NCBI GenBank assembly: GCA_009783755.1
Contig: WRCW01000005.1
Span: 1-32,765 of the forward strand
Direction of reading: 5' to 3'
Length of the DNA stretch: 32,765 nucleotides
Origin: Spirochaetaceae bacterium
GTDB lineage: Bacteria > Spirochaetota > Spirochaetia > CADAEX01
Position 1 is the first letter of the stretch; every line of letters starts with the position of its first letter. A program made the position numbers and the translations under genes. The notes under the pieces were generated by a model. The model had not been told where the DNA came from. It was given only the letters and a program-made list of their open reading frames with translations, and made no database searches. Of the stretch, positions 3,446 through 31,497 are shown one piece after another.

Positions 3446-5215
3446 TTATTTTTCCTTACTTGTTTTAGCATTACTCTTTTTGGCTTCAAGATATTTAACT
3501 ACAGCAGGAGAAATTGTTCCAAAAGAACCGTATTCCTTAATATCTTTTGCAAAAATACCTTCAATAACTTCAAAAGCAGTAGGAGTAAAAGGTTGTGGCA
3601 ATTCTTTTATTATCAACTCAGTAATTTTATCAATATCATCCTTTTCATCTGCGTAAAATATTAACAATTCTATTATTTTCACTATATCTAACAAATTTTT
3701 CTTCTTTTCGAGTATCTTGCTCAGTATCCTTTTTATTTCTATATGTCTATATTTTGAATAGCAATCATAAATTAATAAAGGATTTGACTCGGAGACTTTT
3801 TCTAATAAATTTTTTGAATTATCGTAAGTAAATATCTCAAATAATTTTTCTTTCATAAAATGACGCAAACTAACTGAAATAATATCTTGAGCATCAGCAA
3901 CAATATAACCAGCATCAACAGCGTCCTCTATTTGTTCTTTATTTATTAGAATTGCTGGAAGACCAAAAGTAGGGTCTTTAATACATTTACCATCAATCTT
4001 ATTTTTTACACGTCCATTTTCTATACATAAATATTTATTATATTCAATTTCATATTTTATCATCTCTTTGCCACATATATAAAAGGAGTATTCAAATTCT
4101 TTTAGATTAATATTATCCCTTATACGTATTCTTGGTATACATATACCTGTCTCTCTTTCAATTTCTTTATGTATCAATGAAATTCTTTTGAGCAAATTAT
4201 TTTCAAAATATTCATCAACCAGATGTATTAAGCCCAAACCAATTTCTAGCCGTATTATATCATCTTGAATAATTTTCATTTCATTGAGGTTTTGGTTTAT
4301 AGACTTAATCTTTTTTATTATTTCTTCATTAACAGGTTTTAAATCTTGATATAGTATTTTTTTCTCTTCATTAACTGATTTTCTTAAATAAAAACTCACA
4401 GTCATAGATAGCAGTAAAACAGGCAATAAAAAAATTACGCCGCTTCCTATAGCAAGAGGAATATATATTTTTATTGCAGAAAAGATCTCTCCGCCGTGAT
4501 GCAGAATCTCAATTAAGATACCTCCAAGAATTATGATAAAAATTGAAAGTATTATTATTTTATAATATCCAGATACGTAATTAAATCCTCTATCAATTGC
4601 TGAATATAGATTTACTTCTTTCTGAAGTCTCTTTCTATTTTCCATTGCCTCATATTCTGTTATTATGCAACTGGCAAGCTCTGAATTGATTAAGATACTA
4701 TTCTTCGCCATTTTATCAAGAGAAAATCTTGCAGTAACTTCTACAGTATAGGCAGTTCTCTTTAATACTATAACAACAAAAGAAAAAGCTAATAAAAAAC
4801 CTGCAGAGCCTGCGATTAGGTGTACGATATTTCCTGTCCCAGCCACAAGATAAGAAGTACCCCTTATCACCCAGTCATTAAGATCTGAGCCCTCCTTCAA
4901 AACAAGCAATATAACAGGCATTTTAACCACTGCTGTGTTAGAAAATATAAAAATCGATATCAGTATATGAAATATAGAAAAGTCCGTTGTCATATTTTTT
5001 CTACATAACGTCATTATATGAAAAATCATAATTACAAAAAGCAGATTCATTACAATAAAAATATCCATCACTATCGCAGAACGTAAAATTAGGGATGCTG
5101 ATGATACACTAAAAACTACAATCACCCAAATACATATTAACGTAAGAACCCTAATCACCCTAATGCCGGCGAATTTGTTTTTTAATCTGATTAATAAATC
5201 TTTATATTTGCTCAT
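3446..5215 (-). CDS. FlhA-like export-gate protein, divergent, with complete cytoplasmic domain
   Basis: 589 residues, slightly shorter than usual FlhA (about 690). FlhA is the inner-membrane gate of the flagellar type III export machine. The N-terminal half has about eight hydrophobic segments and the family order: DIFIVMNLLF (51-60), DFSIFHILISIF (78-89), TARFSLDKM (161-169), RKRLQKEVNLYSAID (194-208) and the GGILIEILHHGGE segment (231-243). The C-terminal half has RIRDNINL (364-371), KDPTFGLPA (413-421) and the long helical end. AAGGAGT 6-7 bases before the ATG at 5215 decides the start; an ATG at 5287 has no SD. The segment after 'FVKGD' in normal FlhA reads YVSGYYK here, so the aspartate I recall as important in Salmonella (Asp208) is missing. 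A 27-bp control element lies 84 bp upstream. A second copy without the cytoplasmic domain is at 31498. Confidence 0.85.
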   Translation of the reverse strand: MSKYKDLLIRLKNKFAGIRVIRVLTLICIWVIVVFSVSSASLILRSAIVMDIFIVMNLLFVIMIFHIMTLCRKNMTTDFSIFHILISIFIFSNTAVVKMPVILLVLKEGSDLNDWVIRGTSYLVAGTGNIVHLIAGSAGFLLAFSFVVIVLKRTAYTVEVTARFSLDKMAKNSILINSELASCIITEYEAMENRKRLQKEVNLYSAIDRGFNYVSGYYKIIILSIFIIILGGILIEILHHGGEIFSAIKIYIPLAIGSGVIFLLPVLLLSMTVSFYLRKSVNEEKKILYQDLKPVNEEIIKKIKSINQNLNEMKIIQDDIIRLEIGLGLIHLVDEYFENNLLKRISLIHKEIERETGICIPRIRIRDNINLKEFEYSFYICGKEMIKYEIEYNKYLCIENGRVKNKIDGKCIKDPTFGLPAILINKEQIEDAVDAGYIVADAQDIISVSLRHFMKEKLFEIFTYDNSKNLLEKVSESNPLLIYDCYSKYRHIEIKRILSKILEKKKNLLDIVKIIELLIFYADEKDDIDKITELIIKELPQPFTPTAFEVIEGIFAKDIKEYGSFGTISPAVVKYLEAKKSNAKTSKEK

Positions 5216-5298
5216 AATTTTACTCCTTACACACTCCATTAAACGGTTTGCTGTTTTCTGGTTAAGATCCCTATACTTTATTTTCAAATATATACTTT

Positions 5299-5332: not shown

Positions 5333-7141
5333 TTAGCTTTTATCTGCCACTGAAGAAACTTTTATCTTCCCTTGATCACTCATCTGCTCCTTGATTTCTT
5401 CGGGTACAGCGACAATCGCTCTGCTGTCCTTCTCCACCGCGATACGGCAGAGATCTGCTATTTTGAATTTCTCCGGTACATGCTTAAGAGCTATTCCGGC
5501 TTTTTTTACCGCGATGTGGCAAAGTTCTTTGGTTTTTAATTCTTCCGGTACATACTGAAGAGTCCAACCAGCATCCTCTACTGAAATACGACAGAGTTTT
5601 GCTGTTCTGAATGCTTTTGGTACACACTGAATCACTGCGCTATTTTCCTTCACTGCGATTTGGTAAATCTTTTCAGTTTTGAATTTCTCCGGTATATCCT
5701 GAAGCACCCAACCATCCTTCTTTACCGCGATTTGGCAGAGTTTTTCGGTTTTGAATATTTTTGGTACATATTTAATTGCATGACCACTCTTTTTCACAGC
5801 AATATGACAGAGTTTTTCAGTCTTTAGTTCTTCCGGTACATACTGAAGCGCACCGCCATACTTTGCTACAGAGATTTTACAGAGTTCTTCAGTTAGTAAT
5901 TCTTCAGGCACATAACAAAGTGCCCAGTCCGAATAACCACCTTTTACAGCAATATAGCAGAGTTCTTTTGTTTTTAGTTTTTCTGGTACATACTGAAGTG
6001 CATAACCCATGGTATCTTTTTCTATGGCGATAGTGCAAAGCTCTTTTGTTTTTAAATGTTCCGGTACATACTGAAGCGCTGTACCAACATTTTCCACAGC
6101 GATTTGGCAGAGCTTTTCGGTTTTGAGTTTTTTTGGTACATACTGAAGCGCTACGCCATACTTCTTTACAGCAGTACGGCATAATTTTTCAGTCTTAAGT
6201 TCTTTTGGCACACACTTGAGAGCATTACCTTTCTGCATTACAGCGATACGGCAGAATTTTGAAGTCTTTAATTCCTTTGGTACAAACTCAAGCGCCCAGC
6301 CATCAATTCCCACAGCAATACGACAGAGTTTTTCTGTCTTAAGTTCTTTTGGCACCAACTCAAGTGCCCGGCCAAACTGATTCATGGCAGTGTAACAGAG
6401 TTTCTTTGTCTTGAGTTTTTTTGGCACATATTTAAATGCCCAACTAATCTGTTCTACCGCAATACGGCAGAGATCTGCTGTTTTTAGCTCTTCCGGTACA
6501 TACAGAAGCGCCTCACCATTCAGTGTCACAGCAGTAAGGCATAACTCTTTGGTTTTTAATTCTTTTGGTACAAATGCAAGCGCTCTTGTCATTTGTTTCA
6601 CAGCAAAATAACAAAGTTCTGTAGTTATGAATTCTTTTGGTACGAACATAAGTGCATCTGCATTCTGCGCCACAGCAATTCTGCTAAGTTCTTCACTTTT
6701 AAATTTTTCGGGTACATACTGAAGCGCTTCTCCATTTTTCTCCACAGCAATATGGCAGAGTTCTTTTGTCTTAAATTCTTCGGGTACAGCGATGATTGAT
6801 CTTCCATCCTTTTGTACAGCAATGTGACAAAGTTTTATAGTTCTTAATTTTTGCGGTACATACTGAAGCGCCACTCCACATTCTTCCACAGCGATTTGGC
6901 AGAGTTCTTTGGTTTTTAATTCTTCCGGTACATGTTGAAGCATCCATCCATTGTATTCTATAATAGCTCGACAAAATTTGTAGGTTTTTAATTCTTTTGG
7001 TACAAACTCAAAAGCCCAGCTATCCCGCGCTACCGCGATATGACAAATTTTCTCTGTTTTGAGTTTTTTTGGCACATATTTAAGCAATTTACCATTTTGT
7101 TTTACTGCCCCAAGTGCTTCTTTTTCTGTTGTGATTTTCAT
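5333..7141 (-). CDS. DUF4116 repeat protein, about 24 repeats
   Basis: 602 residues made almost entirely of a 24-residue repeat with consensus [24 protein letters not shown] count about 24 'VP' repeat cores. This is the DUF4116 family, of unknown function, likely an all-helical solenoid (two short helices per repeat). No signal peptide or membrane segment is visible. It starts MKITTEKEALGAVKQ, and all four such proteins in the window share this M-x-IT-x-E-x-x-AL start. AAGGATGG lies 6 bases before the ATG at 7141; the ATG nine bases upstream overlaps that SD, so I prefer 7141. It is the first gene left of the divergent control region at 7.2 kb and is followed by the FlhA-like gene, which has its own element. 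A role as a scaffold or effector is only inference. Confidence 0.85.
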   Translation of the reverse strand: MKITTEKEALGAVKQNGKLLKYVPKKLKTEKICHIAVARDSWAFEFVPKELKTYKFCRAIIEYNGWMLQHVPEELKTKELCQIAVEECGVALQYVPQKLRTIKLCHIAVQKDGRSIIAVPEEFKTKELCHIAVEKNGEALQYVPEKFKSEELSRIAVAQNADALMFVPKEFITTELCYFAVKQMTRALAFVPKELKTKELCLTAVTLNGEALLYVPEELKTADLCRIAVEQISWAFKYVPKKLKTKKLCYTAMNQFGRALELVPKELKTEKLCRIAVGIDGWALEFVPKELKTSKFCRIAVMQKGNALKCVPKELKTEKLCRTAVKKYGVALQYVPKKLKTEKLCQIAVENVGTALQYVPEHLKTKELCTIAIEKDTMGYALQYVPEKLKTKELCYIAVKGGYSDWALCYVPEELLTEELCKISVAKYGGALQYVPEELKTEKLCHIAVKKSGHAIKYVPKIFKTEKLCQIAVKKDGWVLQDIPEKFKTEKIYQIAVKENSAVIQCVPKAFRTAKLCRISVEDAGWTLQYVPEELKTKELCHIAVKKAGIALKHVPEKFKIADLCRIAVEKDSRAIVAVPEEIKEQMSDQGKIKVSSVADKS

Positions 7142-7203
7142 GTTATCCATCCTTATAAAGGAAATTATATCTCTTCGATAAATCTGGTCTTATTTTGCAA
7201 TAG

Positions 7204-7666: not shown

Positions 7667-8938
7667 ATGTCTGTAGTTTTAAATCAAAATCAATTACCCG
7701 CAGCGACAACCATTGAAAACGGGGCAAAAGACTTTGGAGCTGTTTGTGATCATCGGAATATAAGAAATTATGATTTTAAAAAGCCCAATAAATTCACAAA
7801 AGAACAGATTGATGCTATTTCATTAATACATGAAACTTTTGCCCGCCTGGCACGAACCAGCCTTTCTGCCCAGCTTCGTACCGTGGTACATGTAAACCTT
7901 ATTTCTGTTAATCAGCTTACTTATGAAGAGTATATCTCATCCATAGCAATGCCAACTACACTAGCCATTATTGATTTTGATCCTTTAAAGGGGAGTGTTA
8001 TTCTGGAAATTGATCAGTCAATAACGTTTTCAATAATTGATTTCCTTGCCGGAGGCGCTGGAGAAAAATCTGAATTCCAGCATGAACTTACTGATATTGA
8101 AAGATCTATCATGGAAGGGGTTGTTGTCCACTTGCTTGGGAATTTAAGGGCAGCGTGGAGCTCTGTAATTGATTCAAAGCCACGACTTTGTCAAATTGAA
8201 ACAGATTCAAGATTTGCACAAATCGTGCCCTCTGCAGAAATGGCAATACTGGTAACAATGAAAGCTAAAGTCAGGGAAGTGGAGGGGAGGATCAATTTGT
8301 GTATTCCCTACATGACCATGGAGCCAATCATTGGAAAACTTTCAGAACAATACTGCTACTCAGCTTGTTGCAAAGATTCTCCATTTAAAGCTATGCCAAT
8401 TTTTAAAACTATAATTCCTGTAAAATTAACTGCTGAAATATTAAAGCGTAAATATTCTATCAAAGAAATATCTGACTGGAAAGAAGGAACAATTTTATTG
8501 CCAGTACGTCCTTTGGCTCCTGATTCTTGCTTTTTAAGGATCGGGGAGAGAAATATATGGCAATGTGAAATAATAAAAGATACAAAATTGTTACTCAGGC
8601 AAATTAAAGTAGTAAAGCATGTTGAGAAACTGTTTGAAAAGGAGGATTCAAAAATGGAAATAAATAATATGACTGGTTTGCTTAAAGCAGGTATAACAAT
8701 TTCTGTAGAGCTTGGTTCTGCAGAGAAGACAGTTAAAGAAGCCATGGCAATAGGCGAAGGAACAATTATTGAACTTGATACATTAGCCGGAGAACCAGTG
8801 GATGTAAAAGCAAATGGTGTTCTTTTTGGCAAGGGAGAAGTAGTTGTGATAGAAAAAAACCTTGGTGTGAAAATTACCAAAATAATATTTGACCAGGTTG
8901 AAGAAGAAGAAAAAATAGAAGGGAGTCAGAATGATTAG
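7667..8938 (+). CDS. FliM-FliN fusion protein 1 (flagellar switch paralog)
   Basis: 423 residues. Residues 34-230 match the FliM middle domain: NYDFKKPNKFTKEQI, IHETFAR, VNQLTYEEY, RLCQIETDSRFAQIVPSAEM and INLCIPY. Residues 245-320 are the first SPOA domain and 340-410 a FliN-type SPOA domain (VELGSAEKTVKEAMAIGEG, LDTLAGEPVDV, GEVVVIEKNLGVKI). FliM and FliN normally are separate proteins that form the C-ring of the motor. The FliM N-terminal CheY-binding motif (EIDALL type) is absent. The loop that contacts FliG reads GGAG (129-132) instead of GGPG. The start is chosen from AGGAGG 11 bases upstream; the frame extends further up without a better start. An internal SD and ATG allow a separate FliN. 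The stop overlaps the FliG-like gene by 8 bp. Confidence 0.88.
   Translation: MSVVLNQNQLPAATTIENGAKDFGAVCDHRNIRNYDFKKPNKFTKEQIDAISLIHETFARLARTSLSAQLRTVVHVNLISVNQLTYEEYISSIAMPTTLAIIDFDPLKGSVILEIDQSITFSIIDFLAGGAGEKSEFQHELTDIERSIMEGVVVHLLGNLRAAWSSVIDSKPRLCQIETDSRFAQIVPSAEMAILVTMKAKVREVEGRINLCIPYMTMEPIIGKLSEQYCYSACCKDSPFKAMPIFKTIIPVKLTAEILKRKYSIKEISDWKEGTILLPVRPLAPDSCFLRIGERNIWQCEIIKDTKLLLRQIKVVKHVEKLFEKEDSKMEINNMTGLLKAGITISVELGSAEKTVKEAMAIGEGTIIELDTLAGEPVDVKANGVLFGKGEVVVIEKNLGVKITKIIFDQVEEEEKIEGSQND
8639..8656 (+). promoter_or_regulatory. Internal ribosome binding site and ATG for a separate FliN product
   Basis: AAGGAGG ends 8 bases before the in-frame ATG at 8654 (Met330), exactly between the FliM and FliN parts. 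Translation from it would give a 94-residue FliN-like protein ending at 8938. The second fusion gene has the same signal with the same 8-base spacing. Type III secretion SctQ genes are known to make a short C-terminal product from an internal start, so the arrangement has a precedent. Confidence 0.7.
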
Positions 8939-9959
8939 CGCTGCTAGCGTAATGTTATTGGCTTTATTATTGCTAATGTTAATGGTTCTCATACTTGGAG
9001 TTTTGTTCTTTTATTTTAAAAAAGATGTATCGCGACAACTATTTGAAACAAAAAAAACATTGGATAATATGCAAGTTACTTATAATAATTTTTTTAAATC
9101 AACAAACCCTTTTGCTAACTCTTCCGAAGATGAATCAGGATATGTTGATGTCCTTGATTTTTTATCTTCTGCTATAAAAAATCATATTGATAATGTAGTT
9201 GGAGTCATCCGTTTTTTATTAGGACAGAGTGATTGTTCAAAAATTGCTGCTTTTTTTATTGCAATTGGTTCAAAACTATCAGTTGAGATTTTTAAGAATC
9301 TTCAGGAAAATGAAGTCGAGATTATAACATTTGAGGTAGCGTGCTTTGAAAAGATAAATAGTGAGCAAAGAACAACGATTCTTAAAGAATTCTATGAATT
9401 ATTTATGGCTAACCAATATGTTTTTACCGGAGGTATTGATTATGCCCGTGTTCTTCTTGAAAAATCATTTGGAACGATGAAAGCAATTGATATAATTAAT
9501 CGATTAACTTTAAGTCTTAAAACTATGCCATTTGATTTTGTCCGTAGAGTTGAACCTATGCATTTATTAAATTTCATTCAACAAGAACATCCGCAAATAA
9601 TTGCTCTTATTCTCTCACACCTGGAACCTGATAAATCTGCAATTATATTAGAAAAATTACCATCTGAATTACAAGAAGAAATTATTCGGCGAATAGCAAC
9701 AATGAAGAAAACAAGTCCTGAAACTTGCAGAGACATTGAAAGAGAATTAGAAAAAAAGTTATCAACTTTATCAATAGAAGATGAGCCTGCTGTGGGTGGA
9801 CTTGAAAGTGCTGTCAAAATATTAAGTCTTATTAATTCTGGTTCTGAAAAGCAGATAATAAAAATCCTTAAAGATAAAGATCCGAAATTAGCTGATAAGA
9901 TCGAGAAAAGTGGAATAAAAAAATCAGGAGATAGCAAGGAATGGTTTTATGAAAAATAA
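8931..9959 (+). CDS. Membrane-anchored FliG N/M-domain protein lacking the C-terminal domain
   Basis: 342 residues. Residues 5-29 are one strong membrane helix, followed by a linker. From about residue 100 the protein matches FliG N-terminal and middle domains: SKLSVEIFKNLQENEVEIITFEVA, then FTGGIDYARVLLEKSFG (165-181), LLNFIQQEHPQIIALILSHL (212-231) and RRIATMKKTSPE (253-264). The FliM-binding EHPQ (219-222) with Arg254 is kept. The protein stops at 'KDPKLADKIEKSGIKK', just where FliG would run into its C-terminal domain. That domain is found at the start of the next gene, which overlaps this one by 11 bp in another frame. FliG is normally soluble, so the membrane helix is odd; it may replace the FliF anchor. 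GGGAG lies upstream of the ATG. Confidence 0.87.
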   Translation: MISAASVMLLALLLLMLMVLILGVLFFYFKKDVSRQLFETKKTLDNMQVTYNNFFKSTNPFANSSEDESGYVDVLDFLSSAIKNHIDNVVGVIRFLLGQSDCSKIAAFFIAIGSKLSVEIFKNLQENEVEIITFEVACFEKINSEQRTTILKEFYELFMANQYVFTGGIDYARVLLEKSFGTMKAIDIINRLTLSLKTMPFDFVRRVEPMHLLNFIQQEHPQIIALILSHLEPDKSAIILEKLPSELQEEIIRRIATMKKTSPETCRDIERELEKKLSTLSIEDEPAVGGLESAVKILSLINSGSEKQIIKILKDKDPKLADKIEKSGIKKSGDSKEWFYEK

Positions 9960-11988
9960 TAAGAAAAATAAAGTTTTTACATTTGAGGATATTATTTTTC
10001 TTGATGATTTTAGTTTGCGAAGAGTTGTAAAGGAAATAGAAGAAGAAGATCTGGAAAATGCTTTTATAGGAGCAGAGGAGCAAGTAGTGGCAAAGGTTTT
10101 AGAGTTCATGTCCTACTTGTCGGCGAAAGAACTTAACCAGTTGATTAAAACATCCGGACAGGATGTTTTAAAATCTTCCATTGAATTGAGCAGAGAAAGG
10201 ATTGGCAATATAATAACGAGCTTTGTGGGGAGAGGCAGAATTCTTTCTCCCGATGGCTGGAGAGTGCCGGCGAGAGATGGCGTTATTCGCCAGATTGAAG
10301 AAGCAATACAAACAGGGCATCTTGATTTGTATAATTGGTATTGCCAAAAAAATGCCTATTCCGGTTTTGAGGAAGTAGTAAAAAGCGCATTTGATTCATT
10401 CAAAGACCGCGAAAAAGAGCTTTCTGCTATTACTTCTCTTAAAATAAAAGGAGAAATCCTTTACAGCGCCGAATTGCTATTTAGCAGGAATTCGCTTGAA
10501 CATCTTGTTATTAGTTATGATAATATTTTGATTCCTTGTACATTGCTTCCTGCATCGCTTTTAAAACCGATTGGACAATGTAAAAACTTGAAAAGCTTGG
10601 TTTATTCCACGCCATATTTGGACTTGCCTGAATGGATATTTGATTTAACATCATTGACAGATCTTTTTCTTGGCGGTAGTCATCTTGATGGGAAAAGTAT
10701 TACTGCTTTATCAGAAAGGTTAGGTAATCTGATCAATCTGAAAACATTATCTTTAAATTACATGGACATTGACTGTGTTCCCGATAATATCGTGAATCTT
10801 GAGCGATTGGAATATTTAGAGATTTCAAGGTGCCGTATAACATCACTTCCTGAAAATATTGGAAAACTTACAGAGCTTAAAAGGCTTGATATAAGCGGAA
10901 CCTCTGTTGCAAACCTACCGGAGAGTATTGGGTCTCTTACAAAACTTTTAAAACTCGATATAAGTAATACACTTATTACGCACCTTCCTGAAAGCATTGC
11001 AAAACTTATATCGCTTAGGAAACTTGACATAAGGGATACCTGCATACGCGAGCTGCCTCTTTTTCTTGAAAATCTGTATGGACTAAGCATTTGTATGTAT
11101 GGACTTGATGCAAAAATACCTCCTGCGCTTCCGCAGAATAAAAATATAACCTTCAACCGCGAATATAAAATAGAAACACTTCCTCCTCATGACCTGAATT
11201 TAGATGAGTTTATTCGTGCATATTATATGTTTATTCAGGATATATATTATGTTAATCCAATGGCAAGAAGAATGGGGCTTATGGAATTAGAAGATTTTTT
11301 TAGAGATTTATATGAAAAAAATGATTTTTTTGGAGTAGGTATGATGTTGGTAATTGATGGAACAGATCCGGAAAATATTCGTCATATTTTGTCTTGTAAG
11401 ATTGAGCATGAAAACTGCTTTTTAAAAAAGAAATTAAGAAAGATACAGATGGAAGGAATTCTGGGAATCCAGAGGGGCGATGATACAATAGAACTTATTT
11501 TGTACCTAAATAATCTTGTTGATATTGATGGGAATAAAGTTACCCTTTTGTGTAAAGATTACTGGCAAGGAAAACAGAATGCTTTTGAAGACCTTGAAGA
11601 TATTCGCCATGAACTTCCAAAAGAGAGGGAAGAGGTTGCGTTTATCAAGCGGGCAACTAAGATACACAAGATTGCCTGGGACAATGGGCTTTTGGCGCTG
11701 GAAGCAGAATGGAACAGAGAAGGATATGATAATAATGACATATTTGAATATGGGATTCCTCTTGTGATTGATGATTATTTAGGGGCGCATCATATCGAAA
11801 GCCAACTTAACGCCATGATTGAGCGGGAACATAACCCATGGAAAAAGAAAATGGGGCAGGTGAAAAAAACAGCAGTCATGGCTATTCTGGCAGGGGATAT
11901 TCCAAGAATGGTTGAGGAAAAATTATTGTGTTACTTTGATGACAATGTTTTAAGGATTTTAAAAGCGGATCAGGCACGGGAAGAATAG
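9949..11988 (+). CDS. FliG_C-LRR-MotA-like chimera 1
   Basis: 679 residues, no membrane helix. Residues 8-100 match the FliG C-terminal domain (KVFTFEDIIFLDDFSLRRV, then DLENAFIGAEEQV and the end RIGNIITSFVGRGRIL). Residues about 185-395 are leucine-rich repeats of about 23 residues (LPESIGSLTKLLKLDISNT type). Residues 425-520 resemble the MotA cytoplasmic loop joined directly to the MotA tail: ARRMGLMELED, LVIDGTDPENIRHIL, MEGILGIQRGD. Residues 560-672 repeat this pattern (GLLALEA, PLVIDD, AVMAILAGDIPRMVEEKLL). MotA is the stator protein that touches FliG_C. By eye, the acidic pair of the FliG torque helix is replaced here (LNQL). AAGGA lies 8 bases before the ATG. It follows the FliG N/M gene with overlap, so the two are probably translationally coupled. 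A paralog follows at 12949. Confidence 0.85.
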   Translation: MKNNKKNKVFTFEDIIFLDDFSLRRVVKEIEEEDLENAFIGAEEQVVAKVLEFMSYLSAKELNQLIKTSGQDVLKSSIELSRERIGNIITSFVGRGRILSPDGWRVPARDGVIRQIEEAIQTGHLDLYNWYCQKNAYSGFEEVVKSAFDSFKDREKELSAITSLKIKGEILYSAELLFSRNSLEHLVISYDNILIPCTLLPASLLKPIGQCKNLKSLVYSTPYLDLPEWIFDLTSLTDLFLGGSHLDGKSITALSERLGNLINLKTLSLNYMDIDCVPDNIVNLERLEYLEISRCRITSLPENIGKLTELKRLDISGTSVANLPESIGSLTKLLKLDISNTLITHLPESIAKLISLRKLDIRDTCIRELPLFLENLYGLSICMYGLDAKIPPALPQNKNITFNREYKIETLPPHDLNLDEFIRAYYMFIQDIYYVNPMARRMGLMELEDFFRDLYEKNDFFGVGMMLVIDGTDPENIRHILSCKIEHENCFLKKKLRKIQMEGILGIQRGDDTIELILYLNNLVDIDGNKVTLLCKDYWQGKQNAFEDLEDIRHELPKEREEVAFIKRATKIHKIAWDNGLLALEAEWNREGYDNNDIFEYGIPLVIDDYLGAHHIESQLNAMIEREHNPWKKKMGQVKKTAVMAILAGDIPRMVEEKLLCYFDDNVLRILKADQAREE

Positions 11989-12022: not shown

Positions 12023-12913
12023 GTGATAACGCGAGAGGTTATAAATAAACATATTTTAAATATGTCTGAAGAACGATTAAAAAATTGGATCATCTCTCAC
12101 TTTAAAAGAAAGCATAAAGAAATGATAGTGGGTGATTACAATAACTTTATCGAATACTTAAAAGAAGAGCATTTAGTTACAGATGGTATTTGCTCAAGTG
12201 GTGTTGGTAAATCAATATTAAAAAAAATATTAAATGCTTATGAACTTAAAGATATAAATCCTGATGAATTATATGAACATATAAAATTAAACGCTACATT
12301 CGTATTAACTCAAGACTCTGGCTGGGAAATAAAAGAAATATCTCTTTTAAGTGAGACTCCAAACATTGAAAATATAAAATGTTATTTTGCTGAATTTATA
12401 TGGCTTAACAAATGGGGGTATGAACTTTCTAAATATAAACATATTTATAAAATAATGTATTACGCTAATAAGGTTATATGGATAGGGTACGCAGGAGATT
12501 ATTTTGAGCCACATTACTTTATAATCCAAAAAAATAAAATATATGGATTAAAATACAAGCATAAATGCACAAGAAGTAAAAGCTTAAAAATTATGAAAAA
12601 TCTCGACAATGCATTCGATGAATTGTTGCATGTTGGACTGGATGATATAGCACAACAATATAGAGAAAAAAAATTTAATATTATTAAAACTGAAATCGAC
12701 TTATCTGAATATTTTTATAAAGGTTTTTTTTACAAGGGTATTTTATTTGACAGAAATTGGAAAGATGAAATATCTGTTATAAAAAAAATCAGTTTTAATA
12801 ATGGATTATTAAAAATAGAAATCGAAAATTTAACATATCCTCATACTGGATATGCATTATTGGATTTGGAAAATAGTAAAGTAGTCGAAGTTGATAAACC
12901 AATGGTTTTATAA
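12023..12913 (+). CDS. Unrecognised 296-residue protein between the two chimera genes
   Basis: It starts with GTG, about 7 bases after TGGAG, 34 bp behind the first chimera gene. It is rich in Lys, Ile and Tyr and more AT-rich than its neighbours, which may mean a separate origin. No membrane segment or signal peptide. The N-terminal 100 residues look helical; the rest has many aromatic residues and looks like beta-structure (for example 'VIWIGYAGDYFEPHYFII' and 'GLLKIEIENLTYPHTGYALLDL'). I do not recognise a family. Its place inside the operon suggests a part of the same system or a later insertion with its own role. Confidence 0.7.
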   Translation: MITREVINKHILNMSEERLKNWIISHFKRKHKEMIVGDYNNFIEYLKEEHLVTDGICSSGVGKSILKKILNAYELKDINPDELYEHIKLNATFVLTQDSGWEIKEISLLSETPNIENIKCYFAEFIWLNKWGYELSKYKHIYKIMYYANKVIWIGYAGDYFEPHYFIIQKNKIYGLKYKHKCTRSKSLKIMKNLDNAFDELLHVGLDDIAQQYREKKFNIIKTEIDLSEYFYKGFFYKGILFDRNWKDEISVIKKISFNNGLLKIEIENLTYPHTGYALLDLENSKVVEVDKPMVL

Positions 12914-12948: not shown

Positions 12949-15171
12949 GTGGAGAAAAAAGTTTTTACATTTGAGGATATTATTCATCTTGATGATCGTG
13001 CTATATGGAGGATTCTGCGGGAAACAAATATTGAATATCTGCGAGATGCTCTTATTGGAGCTGAGGAAACGATATTAGAAAAGATATATAAAAATATCTC
13101 ACCTCGTATAATAGAAAGATTAAAAAAGATGGTGAAAGAAGCTGAACAGGATTATATATCTCAAGATACCATTAACGAGAGAAGAGGAGGAATTGTCTAT
13201 CATACTATAGTGGGGCTTGCGACAAAAGGAGAAATTGTTTTGCCCGATAATCTAAAACTCCCGACGAGAGGATACAAAGCTCATGCACAAGATAGCAGTA
13301 GAATATTGACGAAAGATAACGTCGTTCATCGGATTGAAAAAGCAATACAAACAGGTCATCTTGATTTATATAATTGGGATTGCAAAGAAAAGCCAATTTC
13401 TGATTTTGAGGAGACAATAAAAAATGCATTTGATTTATTCAAAGGCCATGAAAAAGAGCTTTCTGCAATTACTTCTCTTGTAATTAATGGAGCGATCCTT
13501 TATGGCGCTGAACTGCTATTCAGCTTAAATACACTTGAAGATCTTGATATTAATTATAGGGGCACCTCGAAACATGGGATACCTCCTCGCAACATGCCGC
13601 AGGTATCGCTTTCAAAACCAATTGGGGAATGTAGAAACTTGAAAAAGCTTTCTTTTTCTACACCATATTCAGGGTTACCGGAATGGATATTTAGCTTAAC
13701 ATCATTAACAGACCTTTGCCTGGGTGATTATTGGTTTGAAAATAAAAGCATTATTAGTTTACCGGAGAGCCTAGGGAATCTGAGCAATCTGAAATTATTA
13801 TCTTTGAGATTAATGGAAATTACCTCTCTTCCGGACAGTATAACAAATCTTAAGCACTTGAAATACTTGGAGATTTCATCGAGGAGAATAATGTCGCTTC
13901 CGGAAAGTATTGGAAACCTTACAACTCTTGAAGAGTTGCATATAGACATACCTATTAAAGTTCTGCCGGAAAGTATTCGCAATCTTACAAACCTTTTAGA
14001 ACTTACTATAAACTATACTAATATTATATACTTGCCGGAAAATATTGGCAGCCTCACAAACCTTGTAAATCTTGGATTAATTTCTAACAAATCAATGGAA
14101 AAACTTCCTGATGCCATTGGCAATCTTTTATCACTTAGGAGAATGTCTGTTTGTTGGTCTGCTATAAAAGAATTACCAAAAAGCATGGCAAACCTTAAAT
14201 CCCTTAGAGAACTTGCTATACGCTATACCGGCATACAGGAGATTCCTTCTTTCCTTGGAAGCCTATCAGATCTAACTATTTCGATGTCAGGACTAGATGC
14301 AGAAATTCCTCCTGAGCTTTTACAAAATAAAGATATAAATATTTATCCCAACCCAAAACATAAAATAAAAATACTACCTCATCACGAAATGAATTTTGAT
14401 GAATTCATTCACGCCTATTATGAGTTTATTCGTGATGCTTATTATTATTCCTGTATGGCGAGGAGAGAAGGTCTATTGGCACTGGAAGAATATTTGAATA
14501 ATTCAAATGATTTTTTTAACATTGGATTAAGATTAGTCGTTGATGGAACAGATCCTGAGCTTGTACGAAAAATGCTTACATGCAAGCTTGAACGAGAACA
14601 TGACTTTCTGAAAAATAAACTTAGACAGGTGCAGATGGAAGCACTCTTAAGTATTCAGATAGGAGAGATCCCGGAAGAACTTATTTTACGACTTAATCAA
14701 CGTGTTGATATTGATGGCAATAAAGTAACTCCATTGTGCAATGATTATTTGAAAGGAAATCTTAATGCGCTTGATGATCTCGAAGATCTTCATCATGAAC
14801 TCCCACCGGAACGGGAAGAGGTGGCTTTTATCGAGCGAGCTGTTAGTATATCTGAGAAAGCCAGAAGAGAAGGGATACCGGCACTGGAAGATGAACGGAG
14901 CAGTGAAGGGTACGCTGAGGGAGATATTTTTGAATATGGGCTTTCTCTTATAATAGATGATTTAAGCCCACGTTATATCGAAGCAGTACTGGATGCAATG
15001 ATTAAGCGGGAACGCTGTCCATGGAAAAAGAAAATGGGGCAGGTGAAAAAAGCAGCAGTCCTCTCCATTCAGTCCTATGATAACCCGCGCATACTGGAGG
15101 AACATTTAATGTGCTACTTTGACGACGATGTCCGCAGCTTTTTAAAAGAAGCTTGCTCCAGGGAAGAATAG
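12949..15171 (+). CDS. FliG_C-LRR-MotA-like chimera 2
   Basis: 740 residues, GTG start 7 bases after AAGGAG. Same domain order as chimera 1. FliG_C spans residues 4-98 (KVFTFEDIIHLDDRAIWRILRE, ALIGAEE, IYKNISPR, ATKGEIVLP). The LRRs run from about 195 to 455 (LPESIGNLTTLEELHI type). MotA-like segment 1 is at 490-585 with ARREGLLALEE (504-514), LVVDGTDPELVRKML (529-543) and MEALLSIQIGE (563-573). MotA-like segment 2 is at 625-732 with ARREGIPALED (638-648), LIIDDLSPRYIEAVL (667-681) and LSIQSYDNPRILEEHL (705-720). In both segments the Arg and Glu matching E. coli MotA Arg90 and Glu98 are kept, while MotA membrane helices 3 and 4 are missing. The RDD of the FliG torque helix reads KKM here. The gene ends 58 bp from the convergent DUF4116 gene, with no clear terminator between. 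Confidence 0.87.
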   Translation: MEKKVFTFEDIIHLDDRAIWRILRETNIEYLRDALIGAEETILEKIYKNISPRIIERLKKMVKEAEQDYISQDTINERRGGIVYHTIVGLATKGEIVLPDNLKLPTRGYKAHAQDSSRILTKDNVVHRIEKAIQTGHLDLYNWDCKEKPISDFEETIKNAFDLFKGHEKELSAITSLVINGAILYGAELLFSLNTLEDLDINYRGTSKHGIPPRNMPQVSLSKPIGECRNLKKLSFSTPYSGLPEWIFSLTSLTDLCLGDYWFENKSIISLPESLGNLSNLKLLSLRLMEITSLPDSITNLKHLKYLEISSRRIMSLPESIGNLTTLEELHIDIPIKVLPESIRNLTNLLELTINYTNIIYLPENIGSLTNLVNLGLISNKSMEKLPDAIGNLLSLRRMSVCWSAIKELPKSMANLKSLRELAIRYTGIQEIPSFLGSLSDLTISMSGLDAEIPPELLQNKDINIYPNPKHKIKILPHHEMNFDEFIHAYYEFIRDAYYYSCMARREGLLALEEYLNNSNDFFNIGLRLVVDGTDPELVRKMLTCKLEREHDFLKNKLRQVQMEALLSIQIGEIPEELILRLNQRVDIDGNKVTPLCNDYLKGNLNALDDLEDLHHELPPEREEVAFIERAVSISEKARREGIPALEDERSSEGYAEGDIFEYGLSLIIDDLSPRYIEAVLDAMIKRERCPWKKKMGQVKKAAVLSIQSYDNPRILEEHLMCYFDDDVRSFLKEACSREE

Positions 15172-15228: not shown

Positions 15229-16725
15229 TTATTCTGCTTTTGGCAGTTTTTTAATTTTTTCTTTTAGTTTTATAGGCATATGCCTGATAGCCCACTTGTT
15301 TTGCTTTACGGCAATCAAGCAGAGTTTTTCTGTTTTGAATTTATCAGGAACATATAAAAGAGCTTCACCGTTCTGCTTTACAGCAATTAAACAGAGTTTT
15401 TCGCTCTTGAGTTTTTTTGGTACAAATTGAAGTGCTTTGCCATCTTTCTTTACAGCAATACTGTAGAGTTTTTTTGTCTTTAATTTTTCAGGTAAAAACC
15501 TAAGCGCGTCGCCGTCTTTTTCTATAGCGATCTTACATAATTCTGTGCTTTTTAGTTCTTCCGGTACAGCTTTAAGCGCGTTGCCATTTTTCTCCACAGC
15601 AATACGACAGAGTTCCGCTGTTTTTAAAACTGTTGGTACAAGTAGAAAAGCACGGGGATCTTTTTCTGTTGCTATTTTACAAAGCTCTGCGGTTTTTAGT
15701 TTTTCCGGTACATCCTCAAGCGCTAAGTGATATTTTCCCACAGCAATAAAGCACAGTTTCTCTGTCTTTAATTTTTCAGGTACACATTTAAATGCCCATC
15801 CGTTCTTCTCTACAGCTATGTGGCATAGTTCTTCTGTTATAAATTTTTTTGGCACAAACTTAAGCGCAGGCTGGAGTACTGCGGCATCATTCTTTATAGC
15901 GATTAAGCAGAGTTTTTTTGTCTTAAGTTCTTTTGGTACAAACCTGAGCGCCCCACCTTTTTTCTTTACAGCAATTAAACAGAGTTTTTCGCTCTTGAGT
16001 TCTTTTGGTACAAATTGAAGTGCTTTGCCATCTTTCTTTACAGCAATATGGCATAATTCCAATGTTTTTAGTTTTTTTTGTACAAACATAAGCGCTGTGC
16101 CATTATTTTCTATAGCTATTCGGTAGAGCTCTTCTGTTTTGGCTTTTTTTGGAATATATGCAAACGAGTTGCCACTCTTTTTCACAGCGATTTGATATAG
16201 TTCTTTTGTCTTAAGAGCTTCAGGTACAAACTGAATTGCTCTGCCATCATTTTCTACAGCAATGTGGCAGAGCTCTTTTGTTATGAAATTTATTGGAACA
16301 AATTTAAGCACCCAGCCATTTTTCTCCACAGCAATATGACACAGTTTTTCTGTTATGAATTTTTTTGGAACAAATTTAAGCGCATCACCATTTCGATGTA
16401 CAGCAGTATGGCATATTTCTTCTGTCTTATATTTTTCCGGTACATATTTTAGTGTCCAGCCCCCCTGTTGTACAGCAATGAGGCAGAGATTTTCTGTTTT
16501 TAGTTTTTCCGGTACATCTATAAGTGCAACGCAATAATCTTCCACAGCAATACGGCATATTTTCTTTGTTTTGAATTTTTCAGGAACATACATAAGAACA
16601 TGGCCATCATCCTCCACAGCAATGCGGCATATTTCTTCTGTCTTAAGTTCATCCGGTACAATGTCAAGCATCCAACCACCCTTTTTCACTGCTGCAAGCG
16701 CTTCTTTTTTTGTTGTAATTTCCAT
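15229..16725 (-). CDS. DUF4116 repeat protein, about 20 repeats
   Basis: 498 residues of the same 24-residue repeat (for example ALKFVPKKFITEELCHIAVEKNGW), about 20 repeats. The start MEITTKKEALAAVKKGG matches the other DUF4116 proteins, and AAGGAA lies 7 bases upstream of the ATG at 16725; longer versions of the frame lack an SD and overlap the preceding gene. One repeat is extended by a few residues (NDAAVLQPALKFVP). It is the second gene after a BspA-like gene (29 bp gap), controlled by the element at 17528. The C-terminus is short and basic. Function is unknown; a solenoid binding protein is the likely fold. Confidence 0.85.
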   Translation of the reverse strand: MEITTKKEALAAVKKGGWMLDIVPDELKTEEICRIAVEDDGHVLMYVPEKFKTKKICRIAVEDYCVALIDVPEKLKTENLCLIAVQQGGWTLKYVPEKYKTEEICHTAVHRNGDALKFVPKKFITEKLCHIAVEKNGWVLKFVPINFITKELCHIAVENDGRAIQFVPEALKTKELYQIAVKKSGNSFAYIPKKAKTEELYRIAIENNGTALMFVQKKLKTLELCHIAVKKDGKALQFVPKELKSEKLCLIAVKKKGGALRFVPKELKTKKLCLIAIKNDAAVLQPALKFVPKKFITEELCHIAVEKNGWAFKCVPEKLKTEKLCFIAVGKYHLALEDVPEKLKTAELCKIATEKDPRAFLLVPTVLKTAELCRIAVEKNGNALKAVPEELKSTELCKIAIEKDGDALRFLPEKLKTKKLYSIAVKKDGKALQFVPKKLKSEKLCLIAVKQNGEALLYVPDKFKTEKLCLIAVKQNKWAIRHMPIKLKEKIKKLPKAE

Positions 16726-16753
16726 TTTATTGTTCCTTAAAATAAATATAATT

Positions 16754-17485
16754 TTAATCACTATAGATGATTTTTTCTTTTGGAATATCATCAAAATGCA
16801 TTATGCGTCGTGAAAGTATGATTTTTTGTAAATTGTTGCCTTTCCAAAATGCCGGACTTCCAAGGGCAAATACAGATGCCGGTATTGTAAGCTCTGTTAA
16901 ATTCTTACAACCATCAAATGCTGAGTCATCAAAGGCTGTTACTGATGAAGGTATGATATATGTTTTTGCTTTTTTATTACTCGAATATGCTATGATATTT
17001 TTTTCCTCTTTATCAAAAAGCACTCCATCAATGCTTGTATAATTTGGATTTTGCGGATCTACTATTATATTTGCCAATTTATAGCAATGGTCGAATGCAA
17101 AATCGCCAATGTGTGTTACTGAAGATGGAATCGTAATCTTTTCTAAATTTATGCAATACCGGAAAGCATAATGCTTAATGCATGTTACAGATGGGGGAAT
17201 TATAATTTCTCTTAAATTCATACAATCGTTGAGTGCCATATGCCTAATGGAGGTTACTGCTAATCCAAAGATTTTATCGGGAATAGCTAAAGATAGATCG
17301 CTTTTACAGCAATTGACAAGCTCAAGACTTTCTCCATCAAGTTCAAAATTCATATTATTTTTTTCAAGAGTTTTATTTGTATAGTAAACCTGAATCCCCA
17401 TACGTTTAGCATGATTTTTATATTTTTCTGCTATTTTTTTTGTTTTAAAAGAAACTGTATTGTTCCCATCTGTTAATATATGCAT
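16754..17485 (-). CDS. BspA-like LRR_5 protein, short
   Basis: 243 residues. The first 60 residues are a separate domain (HILTDGNNTVSF...) with no signal peptide; then come about six LRR_5 repeats such as NLREIIIPPSVTCIKHYAFRYC and NLEKITIPSSVTHIGDFAFDHC. Surface versions of this repeat (Treponema and Tannerella BspA) bind host or bacterial partners, but this protein has no visible export signal, so it is either cytoplasmic or sent out by another route. GAGGAG lies 8 bases before the ATG at 17485; the upstream ATG at 17503 comes before that SD. It is the first gene of a two-gene unit with the DUF4116 gene, and a 27-bp element starts 43 bp upstream. Confidence 0.8.
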   Translation of the reverse strand: MHILTDGNNTVSFKTKKIAEKYKNHAKRMGIQVYYTNKTLEKNNMNFELDGESLELVNCCKSDLSLAIPDKIFGLAVTSIRHMALNDCMNLREIIIPPSVTCIKHYAFRYCINLEKITIPSSVTHIGDFAFDHCYKLANIIVDPQNPNYTSIDGVLFDKEEKNIIAYSSNKKAKTYIIPSSVTAFDDSAFDGCKNLTELTIPASVFALGSPAFWKGNNLQKIILSRRIMHFDDIPKEKIIYSD

Positions 17486-17634: not shown

Positions 17635-18477
17635 TTATTTTTCTGAATTCTCTAACTTTTGATACTGGTGAATAGATAGCACATCATATACAGATTCAAG
17701 AACAACTAATTTTTCACGTACCGCTTTCTTCTCTTTGCTGTTATATAACTCATCCTTAGTTATCTTATCAATATCACGCCTATGTGAAATATTACCCATA
17801 GCAAATTCTGTAATTTTAACATCTGAAAACTTTCTTTTACTATTTGCTTTAACAACGCCATTAGCCCAGGCCCATAAATAATCTTTTACTTTTTTAGTAA
17901 GTTTATTTAACTCAATTACATAAAAAGCTTCTTCAACATAATATCTTATTCTGATCCATCCCCCCCTGATAAGGGCTTCCATTATTTCATGCCTTGCTTT
18001 ACCCTCGAAACCCATGGGCTCATTATACTTTTTATACATAGCATCAACATATTCTTTAGTAAGTCCAAAAGATTTAGGACTTTTTATTATTTCATCAATA
18101 TGATTCTTTTCCACTTCAAATAACTGACCACCAGGACTTATCCAATACGCATTAGCATCTGGCACTTCAAAAACTTCAAGCTTTGTCTCTTCAGATTTTA
18201 AATACTCTTCCGGTGATGTAATAGCTTTTCTTAACTCATCTATCAACATATCCTTTATTGGTAATAATCCAGGTTCAGTATCCATAATGGTTTCTACACC
18301 ATCTTTAATTATTGTTTCAATCCTTGAATCTGTATTTGACTTTATATCATCACTTTTTATCTTTTTTGCAAGATTATCTTTAAGATCCTTTAAAATAATA
18401 TTGTCCCACATAGCTTTATGCTCTTCTATTAGTTTTTGTTGTTCTTCTTCTGGTAAATCCTCAAAAAATTTATCCAT
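17635..18477 (-). CDS. Unrecognised 280-residue protein
   Basis: The N-terminal 100 residues are charged and helical (MDKFFEDLPEEEQQKLIEEH start). A middle part at about 107-200 has YWISPGGQLFEV, a helical segment and RGGWIRIRYYVEEAFYVIEL. I recall this 'ISPxG ... GWIRxR' pattern from phage-type and genomic-island proteins of unknown function. AAGGAG 6 bases before the ATG at 18477 decides the start. It is the last gene of the operon DUF4116 - FliM-FliN 2 - FliG-M-like - this gene. The function is unknown. Confidence 0.7.
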   Translation of the reverse strand: MDKFFEDLPEEEQQKLIEEHKAMWDNIILKDLKDNLAKKIKSDDIKSNTDSRIETIIKDGVETIMDTEPGLLPIKDMLIDELRKAITSPEEYLKSEETKLEVFEVPDANAYWISPGGQLFEVEKNHIDEIIKSPKSFGLTKEYVDAMYKKYNEPMGFEGKARHEIMEALIRGGWIRIRYYVEEAFYVIELNKLTKKVKDYLWAWANGVVKANSKRKFSDVKITEFAMGNISHRRDIDKITKDELYNSKEKKAVREKLVVLESVYDVLSIHQYQKLENSEK

Positions 18478-18526
18478 ACTATTCTCCTTACCCATATAGT
18501 TTTTAAATAACAAAACACATTTTATT

Positions 18527-18842: not shown

Positions 18843-20264
18843 TTACCTTATAGTGCATAGCGGTCCCAGATAAAAAGGATCTTCATCCGGGTTTTCCCCG
18901 GAAGATTCGTCTTGCTGTTTAATAGGATTGCTTTCCGAAGTCTTTCCCATTACACAGTTTGTGACTCTTACTCCTAAATTTTCATCTATTACAACAACCT
19001 CGCCATGAGCAACAAGTACATTATTGGCAAAAATATCTATTGGTTCACCTGCCAATTTTTCCAGTGTGAGGATTCTCCCTTCGGACATACTTAATAATTC
19101 TTCCATGGTCAACTCTGTTCTTCCAAGTTCAACAATACATTGGATTTTCATTTGTCCCATGGCTTCTTCCCTGTTCTTTGCTGTTGCGTAGTTTACATTC
19201 TTTTTCATTATGCCGACCTCCTTAAAATCGCATTGTTTTTCGATAATTATTTTTTTGTTAAATACAGGATTTGTTTTAAGTATCCTTGCTGTAAATAATT
19301 GTATTCCATCAATGCAGAGTGTGTATTGGTTTGGATCTAAATTTTCATAGGGATAGATTATTGTCCCGGGCTTCCACTCTGATAATTCGCTATAGAGTAT
19401 TTCTTTTTCAAAAAGTATTGCATTAGCGCTCATTTTAACATTACGCAAAGATTCAGGATTTATACGCTGGCGTTGTTTTGAAGTACCTCCAGTTGAGTAC
19501 CAGTTTTTTCTTGTGAGTTCATCCAGGATACTTTCTAGTGATAGATATGGAATGCAAATGTTTATCATTCCTTCAACACCACAAAATTCAATTTCAATAT
19601 CTATGAGGATAACCATTTCATTTGGCGGGACGAGTTGCACAAATGTCGGGTTTGTTTCAATATGGCTTAGTTTTGGTTTTATAACAGCAAATGGCTCCCA
19701 TGCTGAGCGAAAACATTCCAGTAGTCCAATAACTGGTTTTTGCATTGTAAAATTTTCAAGCGCAGTCAAGGTTATATCTTTCCTGTGTACGAAACCATTA
19801 ATATCACCTGGGCCGCCAAATATTTTATTCAACATGGCAGAATATACCGAAGGATCAATTTCAATGCAGGCAGTTCCACCTGTCTCTTCCATGTTTATTA
19901 TTCCAAGCAATGTAGGTATTGGAATAGAACAGATGAATTCCTCGTATGACAACTGGTCAACAGAGGCAACATGACAATGAACATCTTTTCTGAATTGCCT
20001 GGAAAGATACTCTGTTGCTTTTCGGACAAAAGTTTCATGGATCATGGTAATTGACCGTATTTGTTCTTTGGAAAACTTATCCAGTCTTTTGAAATCATAA
20101 ATTTTTATTTTACGCACATTTTTATAAAATGAATTATAGGCATCTTCTTCGCCTTCCTCGGAAGGAGTGGAAAAGGCTGTAAGCAACTGATCGATTTCAT
20201 TTTGGCTTAGAATATCACATTTAAAAACATCATCAATGATATCCTCTTCTTTGTCTTTTTCCAT
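18843..20264 (-). CDS. FliM-FliN fusion protein 2 (flagellar switch paralog)
   Basis: 473 residues. Unlike copy 1 it keeps the FliM N-terminal CheY-binding motif, [11 protein letters not shown] at residues 18-28. The FliM middle domain spans about 55-250 ([32 protein letters not shown] at 148-154, [26 protein letters not shown]). SPOA domain 1 is at about 277-345. The FliN part is at 375-440 ([44 protein letters not shown]). After it comes an acidic tail of about 30 residues. GGPG, the FliG-contacting loop, is kept. AAGGAG sits 8 bases before the ATG. It follows a DUF4116 gene by 16 bp and precedes the FliG-M-like gene. It carries an internal FliN start at 19208. Confidence 0.9.
19206..19223 (-). 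promoter_or_regulatory. Internal ribosome binding site and ATG for a separate FliN product (copy 2)
   Basis: On the minus strand AAGGAGG (19223-19217) stands 8 bases before the in-frame ATG at 19208 (Met353). The product would be a 121-residue FliN with an acidic tail, ending at 18843. The spacing and place equal those in the first fusion gene although the surrounding bases differ, which argues for selection. Confidence 0.72.
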
Positions 20265-20280
20265 AATTACACTCCTTAAC

Positions 20281-21156
20281 TTAAATTATGCCAATATTCC
20301 TTTGCGGATTTTTCCCTGCTGCAATGCTGTAAAGTTCCATACTCTTTATCTCTTCAGGTACAAACTCATCTGACTTTTCATGGTACGCCACAGCAAAACA
20401 GCACAGCTGTAAGCTCTTTAGTTCTTCTGGCACATACCGGATCGCATAACCATTCTGCATCACTGCAATGTAGCAAAGTTCCTTTGTCCTGAATTTTTCA
20501 GGTACATCTCCCAGACCTAAACCATACTTCTTTACAGCTATACGGCAGAGTTTAAAAGTTTTTAGTTCTTCAGGTACAAAATTAAGCGCGCTGCCATCAT
20601 TTTTCACAGCCATAAGGCATAGCTCTTCTGTCTTAAACTTTTCTGGAACATGCAAAAGCGCCCATCCATCATTTTTCACAGCAATGTGGCACAGTTCTTT
20701 TGTTTTAAACTTTTCCGGCACAAGCTCAAGCATACTGCCATCTTTTTCAATAGCAATACGGCATAGTTCTTCTCTCCTGAATTCTTCAGGAACATCTAAA
20801 ATCGTCCAATAATCTTTCTCCATAGCAGAGAGGTATATTCCATATAGTTCTTCACTATTGAGTTCCCATGGCAAAAACTTAAGAGCCTTGATGTTTTCTA
20901 ACAAAGCAGCACAGTATATCTCCTCTGTTAAGAGTTCTTTTGGTATAAGTTTAAGAGCATTTCCATCTTTTTTTGCAGCAATATGACAAAGTTCTGTTGT
21001 CATAAGTTTTTTTGGTACAAACATAAGTGCTCTATAGTCCTTTTCCACAGCAATACGGCATATTTCTGCAGATTTGAGTTCTTCTGGTATAAACAAAAAC
21101 GCCCAAAAGCCTTTTTTTATTGCAGAGAGGGCCTTCTTTTCGCTTGTGATTACCAT
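20281..21156 (-). CDS. DUF4116 repeat protein, about 11 repeats
   Basis: 291 residues. The start [16 protein letters not shown] is the shared DUF4116 head. About eleven 24-residue repeats follow ([23 protein letters not shown] type); the fourth is longer and irregular ([25 protein letters not shown]). AGGAG lies 7-8 bases before the ATG. It is the first gene left of the inverted element pair at 21.2 kb and leads the operon with FliM-FliN 2. No signal peptide or membrane helix. Confidence 0.83.
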
Positions 21157-23059: not shown

Positions 23060-23071
23060 GACTACCAATAT

Positions 23072-24082: not shown

Positions 24083-24096
24083 ATTATATAGTTATA

Positions 24097-26103: not shown

Positions 26104-26116
26104 GCTTCTACTTCTT

Positions 26117-28264: not shown

Positions 28265-28328
28265 TTTTTTGCTCCTTTTTTTCATTAGCAGCTTTTCCTG
28301 ATTTATTCGTGCTTTATGTATAGCACTA

Positions 28329-31483: not shown

Positions 31484-31497
31484 GGAGAGGCGTATTT

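Follow-up and report, generated by a model that had tools for sequence, protein, structure and literature searches.

The window analysed here is the whole of contig C5 (32,765 bases) from the 2.1-Mb genome, in 247 contigs, of a Spirochaetaceae bacterium. It encodes a 342-amino acid (aa) protein, here termed TM-FliG, which is probably a natural fusion of the second transmembrane helix (TM2) and cytoplasmic tail of FliF to the N-terminal and middle domains of FliG (FliG_N and FliG_M), without the ring-building domains of FliF. The torque domain, FliG_C, is missing from this chain and is found at the start of the following gene, the product of which continues into leucine-rich repeats (LRRs) and two copies of the cytoplasmic part of the stator protein MotA, while the gene adjoining TM-FliG on its other side supplies a FliM middle domain and a FliN SpoA domain. 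We tentatively regard TM-FliG as a FliF-FliG chimera and the set of proteins as a membrane-tethered, non-torque accessory scaffold on or beside the flagellar motor.

The anchor and the domain border of TM-FliG

Pfam analysis identified an intact FliG_N (residues 103-201, E 3.3e-34) and FliG_M (E 7.2e-31) in TM-FliG, which also passes TIGR00207 (238.2 bits against a cut-off of 226.7). The FliM-binding motif is kept, with EHPQ at residues 219-222 and the Arg motif at R253-R254, as an earlier note on this DNA had stated. The two domains are constrained (dN 0.34, with dS saturated; 49 of 69 and 62 of 89 class-invariant residues retained), and the FliG part of an AlphaFold2 (AF2) model resembles Salmonella FliG with a Z score of about 14. 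A FliG tree could not place the protein because its branch is too long.

The N-terminal helix had been proposed as a membrane anchor, and hydropathy analysis bears this out, as the best 19-residue mean within residues 1-34 is 3.27; it is directly followed by KK, and the FliG part is therefore expected on the cytoplasmic side. A stretch of approximately 70 residues separates the helix from FliG_N. The helix, earlier described as an addition, is probably TM2 of FliF itself, followed by the FliF tail that is normally the partner of FliG_N (PMC6445934). In relatives with fliF and fliG in one frame, the tblastn alignment starts at residues 7-13 of TM-FliG and crosses FliF TM2, the tail and the stop codon into FliG. 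Since BLAST of residues 1-110 against the FliF, FliG, MotA, MotB and FliL proteins of the host returned nothing significant, profiles were used to compare the tail. With a profile anchored at the junction (the FliF C-terminal end) and built from 105 spirochaete FliF tails, the score of residues 31-101 was equalled by one in 5000 shuffles. An ungapped spirochaete profile placed the motif at residues 70-98 (GYVDVLDFLSSAIKNHIDNVVGVIRFLLG compared with, for example, SRLEMMENITNMAKGHPEDVAQLIRTWLL; shuffle p 0.001-0.003), a score equalled by a fraction of 3.2e-4 of 34,557 natural windows, while HMMER local scores gave p of about 0.006-0.008. A mixed profile of Thermotoga maritima and spirochaete tails was dropped as it lost specificity, the FliG_M repeats scoring equally high. 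Supplied with FliG rows only, AF2 predicted helices at residues 69-84 and 86-98, directly before FliG_N (predicted local distance difference test about 80-87), and interrupted where the FliF tail has its HP kink, thereby giving the helix-kink-helix pattern expected of that tail. Order, place and helix pattern would fit FliF TM2 and tail, with sequence p values of about 0.0002-0.01 depending on the test.

Several observations weigh against this reading. The likeness to the FliF tail is weak in sequence, and in the gapped test its score is equalled by 26 of 2417 natural segments, some being from FliF itself. The main doubt is that helices 70-98 could derive from FliG, because the repeats of FliG_M resemble the FliF tail and score about as high on the FliF profile. 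The structural model suggested in the earlier note delivered the two helices, but its FliG_N part agrees only loosely with the solved structure of a FliF-FliG complex (5tdy; Z 6.8, 5.1 Å). The search for similar proteins, likewise suggested there, yielded no TM-FliG ortholog in any of 148 relatives, 395 genomes from the class and 200 from family f42, with strict thresholds in two of the searches such that a diverged ortholog could be missed; matches were at the level of ordinary FliG, or none rose above threshold. Moreover, action of the set on the motor is inference only.

The division of FliG at the border of its middle and C-terminal domains is as first described: FliG_N and FliG_M lie in the first gene, FliG_C opens the second, and the two genes, both on the forward strand, share 11 bp that are read in different frames. 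TM-FliG ends '...DPKLADKIEKSGIKKSGDSKEWFYEK' and the following gene opens 'MKNNKKNKVFTFEDIIFLDD', where the ordinary FliG of the host reads '...DPELAEEIKKRMFVFEDIVLLDD'. Compared to ordinary FliG, the junction holds some 20 or more additional residues, distributed on both sides of the break, and the pair is consequently not one frameshifted FliG. Good ribosome-binding sites precede both genes, and FliG_C without a preceding FliG_N or FliG_M recurs in the paralog at 12949-15171 and in a homolog in G246, a single-contig genome of another family, such genes forming a separate family. A sequencing error, raised earlier as an argument against the claim, is excluded by the additional residues, the stand-alone FliG_C homologs and the two ribosome-binding sites.

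Apart from the window, contig C3 of the host carries a complete spirochaete-type flagellar operon in the order hslVU, flgB, flgC, fliE, fliF, fliG, fliH, fliI, flgD, flgE, motA, motB, fliL, fliM and fliY (names assigned by reading the sequences). It includes an ordinary full-length FliG, and a second full-length FliG (455 aa, with N, M and C domains and no transmembrane helix) lies on contig C158. An organism without FliF is ruled out by the ordinary FliF on C3. As the same genome has ordinary FliF, FliG, FliM, FliY, MotA and MotB along with a second FliG, MS-rings (membrane and supramembrane rings) exist in the host and the TM-FliG locus is an accessory module. The earlier proposal of a C-ring (cytoplasmic ring) seat that needs no MS-ring therefore stands in part: the YscJ/FliF domain (Pfam PF01514) is found in the host genome on C3 only, with no second FliF, and the anchor of TM-FliG lacks all periplasmic ring-building domains, which together suggest a membrane seat without an MS-ring of its own, whereas the host does possess ordinary FliF and FliG. 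A FliF encoded elsewhere and binding TM-FliG through a usual FliG_N had been named as an argument against such a seat; the FliF on C3 and the complete FliG_N make up half of it. Since FliG_N is fully present, TM-FliG may bind to, or mix into, the ordinary MS-ring.

FliG_C-LRR-MotA proteins and their relatives

FliG_C occupies residues 6-98 of the 679-aa protein encoded after TM-FliG (Pfam E 1.3e-12). NCBIfam MotA matches in this protein (79-135) and its 740-aa paralog reach E 1.6e-17. In each, the MotA part consists of the TM2-TM3 loop joined straight to the tail that follows TM4, in two tandem copies; alignment with host MotA locates the loop and C-tail motif in both proteins, and the AF2 model of the 740-aa protein shows helices in this part. 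The four membrane helices of the MotA channel are absent from both proteins by hydropathy, the one marginal segment (1.61) lying outside the MotA-like part. Arg and Glu of the ARREGLLALE motif, equivalent to R90 and E98 of Escherichia coli MotA, are kept in three of the four copies, Arg being lost from copy two of the 679-aa protein. When the 740-aa model was compared with known structures, the matches listed were LRR-containing and spanned residues 109-471.

Neither FliG_C copy of the window keeps the acidic pair or the Lys of 'ALK', and the Arg of 'S.R' persists in the second only, while these torque charges are retained in relatives such as G057. Because most of them are lost in both proteins, torque generation by this set would be unlikely, and so would a second rotating C-ring. 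The ratio of non-synonymous to synonymous substitution rates (dN/dS) is 0.23 for the MotA parts, 0.36 for the paralog pair overall and 0.70, i.e. relaxed, for FliG_C.

Relatives of the MotA cytoplasmic part and linker were sought across 395 class genomes and 200 from the family of G246. A minority of the genomes have full or partial relatives outside ordinary MotA; in the family of G246 these number 23 of 200 at E 1e-11. Similar shuffled proteins are found in other spirochaetes, mostly of gut type. The relatives identified by name belong to Spirochaetota, many being from termite guts to judge by isolate names. G246 carries a homologous FliG_C-LRR-MotA protein in a region of approximately 50 kb which, in common with the window, also holds DUF4116 genes, a FliM-like piece, the 'AYWISP' domain and DUF2779, WYL and AAA genes; two of its DUF4116 proteins have a MotA cytoplasmic head. 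Further shuffled motor proteins were found in G397, G531, G561, G512, G207, G063, G057 and G087. Those of FliG_C and MotA comprise three MotA cytoplasmic domains with FliG_C, one MotA domain with two FliG_M and FliG_C, and adjacent separate genes for FliG_C and the MotA domain; others join the MotA domain to TPR/Sel1 repeats, FliM pieces to TPR, or FliM to FliG_M and FliG_C.

Soluble MotA domains, with loop joined to tail and no membrane helices, were thus observed fused to or beside FliG_C in several spirochaete genera (Table 1). In G207 (L082:749-2665), a 638-aa fusion of the FliM middle domain, FliG_M and FliG_C lies close to a MotA-FliG_C fusion, and in G561 (L217:7317-11184) MotA and FliM pieces are carried on TPR/Sel1 repeats with a DUF4116 protein nearby.

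Fusions of FliF to FliG and spirochaetes with two FliG proteins are already known (PMC4768692, PMC6445934, PMC7225975). In contrast, the open-licence literature searched held no description of a FliG with one part on a FliF-tail anchor and the other on an LRR-MotA chimera, nor of FliG-LRR, DUF4116 or non-flagellar C-ring paralog proteins of this kind, and the shuffled set of motor parts in spirochaetes is apparently undescribed. The spirochaete FliG1/FliG2 pair (PMC7225975) is similar in that an extra FliG of the same FliG_N and FliG_M families exists beside the flagellar one; these are taken to be whole soluble proteins, as is the C158 FliG, whereas here FliG_C is encoded by a separate gene and TM-FliG has gained a membrane anchor. 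Chlamydiaceae naturally fuse a shortened FliF to FliG and also possess FlhA (PMC4768692). Their fusion retains part of the periplasmic FliF and joins it to FliG_M, whereas in TM-FliG no more than the transmembrane helix and tail of FliF would remain, FliG_N is included and an ordinary flagellar operon exists in the host. Salmonella FliF-FliG deletion fusions (PMC6445934) and a Vibrio FliF-FliG fusion (PMC11481574) still form C-rings or MS-rings as one chain, but these are laboratory-made and retain the FliF ring domains and, for Salmonella, also the stator face of FliG_C.

Function of the set and alternative explanations

As each neighbouring gene overlaps TM-FliG by a few bases (8 bp upstream, with FliM-FliN fusion 1), the FliM-FliN, TM-FliG and FliG_C-LRR-MotA proteins are probably produced together, as though a C-ring-type protomer had been cut and rejoined in a new order. 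The FliF tail would fold onto FliG_N in cis, giving the unit a seat on the inner membrane that needs no MS-ring, FliM-FliN would dock on FliG_M, and FliG_C would be carried by the LRR protein that also bears the rotor-facing part of the stator. The rotor-stator and FliG-FliM contacts would then serve as docking faces, such that the FliG, FliM and MotA faces may bind, cap or recruit to the ordinary periplasmic-flagellum motor, regulating or braking it or serving as an adaptor, and the partner would be borne by the LRR, DUF4116 or TPR repeats. Most likely the set does not rotate, because the FliG_C torque charges are mostly lost and the set contains no stator channel.

The clutch EpsE and the brake YcgR are soluble motor regulators acting at FliG or MotA faces. 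Neither is known to be built of rotor or stator domains, whereas here the module is FliG_C and the MotA cytoplasmic domain itself.

A broader proposal, which we consider doubtful though possible, is that spirochaetes possess a modular second kit of rotor (FliF tail, FliG, FliM, FliN), stator (MotA cytoplasmic part) and export gate (FlhA) pieces combined with LRR, DUF4116 or TPR repeats, in this case including a membrane-seated switch complex free of an MS-ring, for a non-flagellar task or for control of the periplasmic flagella. Motor parts can evidently be cut at domain borders and reused, as exemplified by the probable FliF-FliG 'split domain' in one chain, by FliG_C apart from FliG_N and FliG_M, and by a MotA whose rotor-facing face has become soluble through removal of the membrane helices. 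Provided that they are functional, the proteins would offer naturally occurring probes of the contact between rotor and stator and inform the question of how periplasmic flagella are controlled in spirochaetes; they would also put to the test the idea of a C-ring-like unit standing on the membrane with no MS-ring.

Among the alternatives to an accessory scaffold, TM-FliG might be a third FliG built into the ordinary C-ring beside the normal protein, with FliG_N on FliF or on an adjacent FliG_N and, lacking FliG_C, tuning torque or switching at some motors. The well conserved FliG_N and FliG_M, the ordinary FliF and the second FliG of the host, and the differing roles of the two FliG proteins of Borrelia (PMC7225975) are compatible with this. 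However, the tail-like helices, if docked, would occupy the FliF-binding groove of the same chain, a membrane helix of its own would be redundant, and the locus brings its own FliM-FliN fusions and FlhA-like proteins, rendering such a role unlikely.

Concerning the origin of the locus, its FliG and FliM parts resemble those of family f42 slightly more than those of the host, and same-genus genomes lack it, for which reason either lateral gain or mistaken binning may explain its presence. That the contig derives from another spirochaete, in which case its relation to the ordinary flagellum of the host would be uninformative, is not probable. In addition to these two observations, 7% contamination of the host genome and an aconitase-like gene on the contig with only about 41% relatives in the genus would suggest it, but the composition fits the bin (tetranucleotide correlation 0.937, GC 0.353, where a foreign spirochaete locus gives 0.73), FlhA-like relatives occur on contig C99 of the same bin, and lateral transfer accounts for the same facts.

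A role in secretion is possible, though less so than that of a scaffold. A stand-alone non-flagellar base, comparable to the chlamydial fusion of short FliF to FliG_M that retains FlhA (PMC4768692), could employ the FlhA-like proteins of the window and C99; yet the window held no recognised paralog of FlhB, FliP, FliQ, FliR or the ATPase, and the FlhA-like copies are diverged, far under the FlhA equivalog cut-off, and relaxed (dN/dS about 0.70), so that we hold this base to be quite improbable. Recombination debris, in which duplicated flagellar genes were shuffled with repeat genes to no fixed function, would account for the many differing shuffles in related genomes, the relaxed FliG_C and FlhA-like copies and the broken copies on C99, but is similarly improbable given the open frames, ribosome-binding sites and tight overlaps, the recurrence of the architecture in other genera, and the constraint on the FliG_N, FliG_M and MotA parts and the paralogs, which argues against decay.

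Neighbouring genes

FliM-FliN fusion 1 lacks a CheY-binding-type N-terminal peptide. Much of the remaining contig consists of DUF4116 and LRR repeat proteins (Table 1).

Table 1. Coordinates of the features discussed (positions in the window unless another locus is named)
Feature	Position	Strand	Evidence
TM-FliG, 342 aa: membrane helix, FliF-tail-like segment, FliG_N, FliG_M; no FliG_C	8931-9959	+	Open reading frame, Pfam, hydropathy, AF2 model
Membrane helix within residues 1-34, at position of FliF TM2	8931-9032	+	Hydropathy; tblastn alignment
Two-helix segment like the FliF C-tail (residues 70-98), immediately preceding FliG_N	9138-9224	+	Profile tests; AF2 helices
FliG_N, residues 102-201	9234-9533	+	Pfam PF14842
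FliG_M with EHPQ, residues 210-280	9558-9770	+	Pfam PF14841
FliG_C, linker, LRR, two MotA cytoplasmic-like domains, 679 aa	9949-11988	+	Pfam FliG_C, LRR; NCBIfam MotA, TIGR00207; alignments
FliG_C of the 679-aa protein, torque charges lost	9964-10242	+	Pfam; alignment
Paralog with FliG_C, linker, LRR, two MotA cytoplasmic-like domains, 740 aa, 56% identical	12949-15171	+	Pfam, NCBIfam, alignments, AF2
FliM-FliN fusion 1	7667-8938 (open frame from 7568; likely start 7667)	+	Pfam FliM E 4.9e-66, FliMN_C E 1.5e-25
FliM-FliN fusion 2, CheY-binding-type N-terminal peptide kept	18843-20264	-	
Diverged FlhA-like protein, 613 aa	3446-5287	-	Pfam FHIPEP E 4.6e-69
Protein resembling the N-terminal half of FlhA, 262 aa, related to 3446-5287	31474-32262	+	
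296-aa protein between the two FliG_C-LRR genes	12023-12913	+	No Pfam match above cut-off
DUF4116 repeat protein	5333-7150	-	Pfam PF13475
DUF4116 repeat protein	15229-16794	-	Pfam PF13475
DUF4116 repeat protein	20281-21156	-	Pfam PF13475
DUF4116 repeat protein	28474-28800	+	Pfam PF13475
Soluble MotA cytoplasmic domain loci	L077:2605-3506; L079:576-1469; L080:3448-4215; L082:6977-7720; L211:2417-4318; L216:7722-11714; L218:902-3292; L220:3517-4269		

Contig C99 of the host (L095:1-7500) holds further FlhA-like pieces, partly broken, one of which is fused to the 'AYWISP' domain; this domain is also present at 17635-18513 of the window and at L075:14583-15065, and stands alone in the window and in G246. 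Genes for DUF2779, a WYL regulator and an AAA ATPase accompany the motor chimeras at 21563-28285 of the window, where the AAA protein carries LRRs, and at L076/L097 of G246, and possibly mark a defence-type or mobile island. Two paralogs at L076:12625-13437 and L076:14045-14899 open with a FliM-type CheY-binding-like peptide (ILSQEEIDQLLVAI and TLNQDEIAQLLTAI) followed by a domain containing a Cys pair, the first having no Pfam match.

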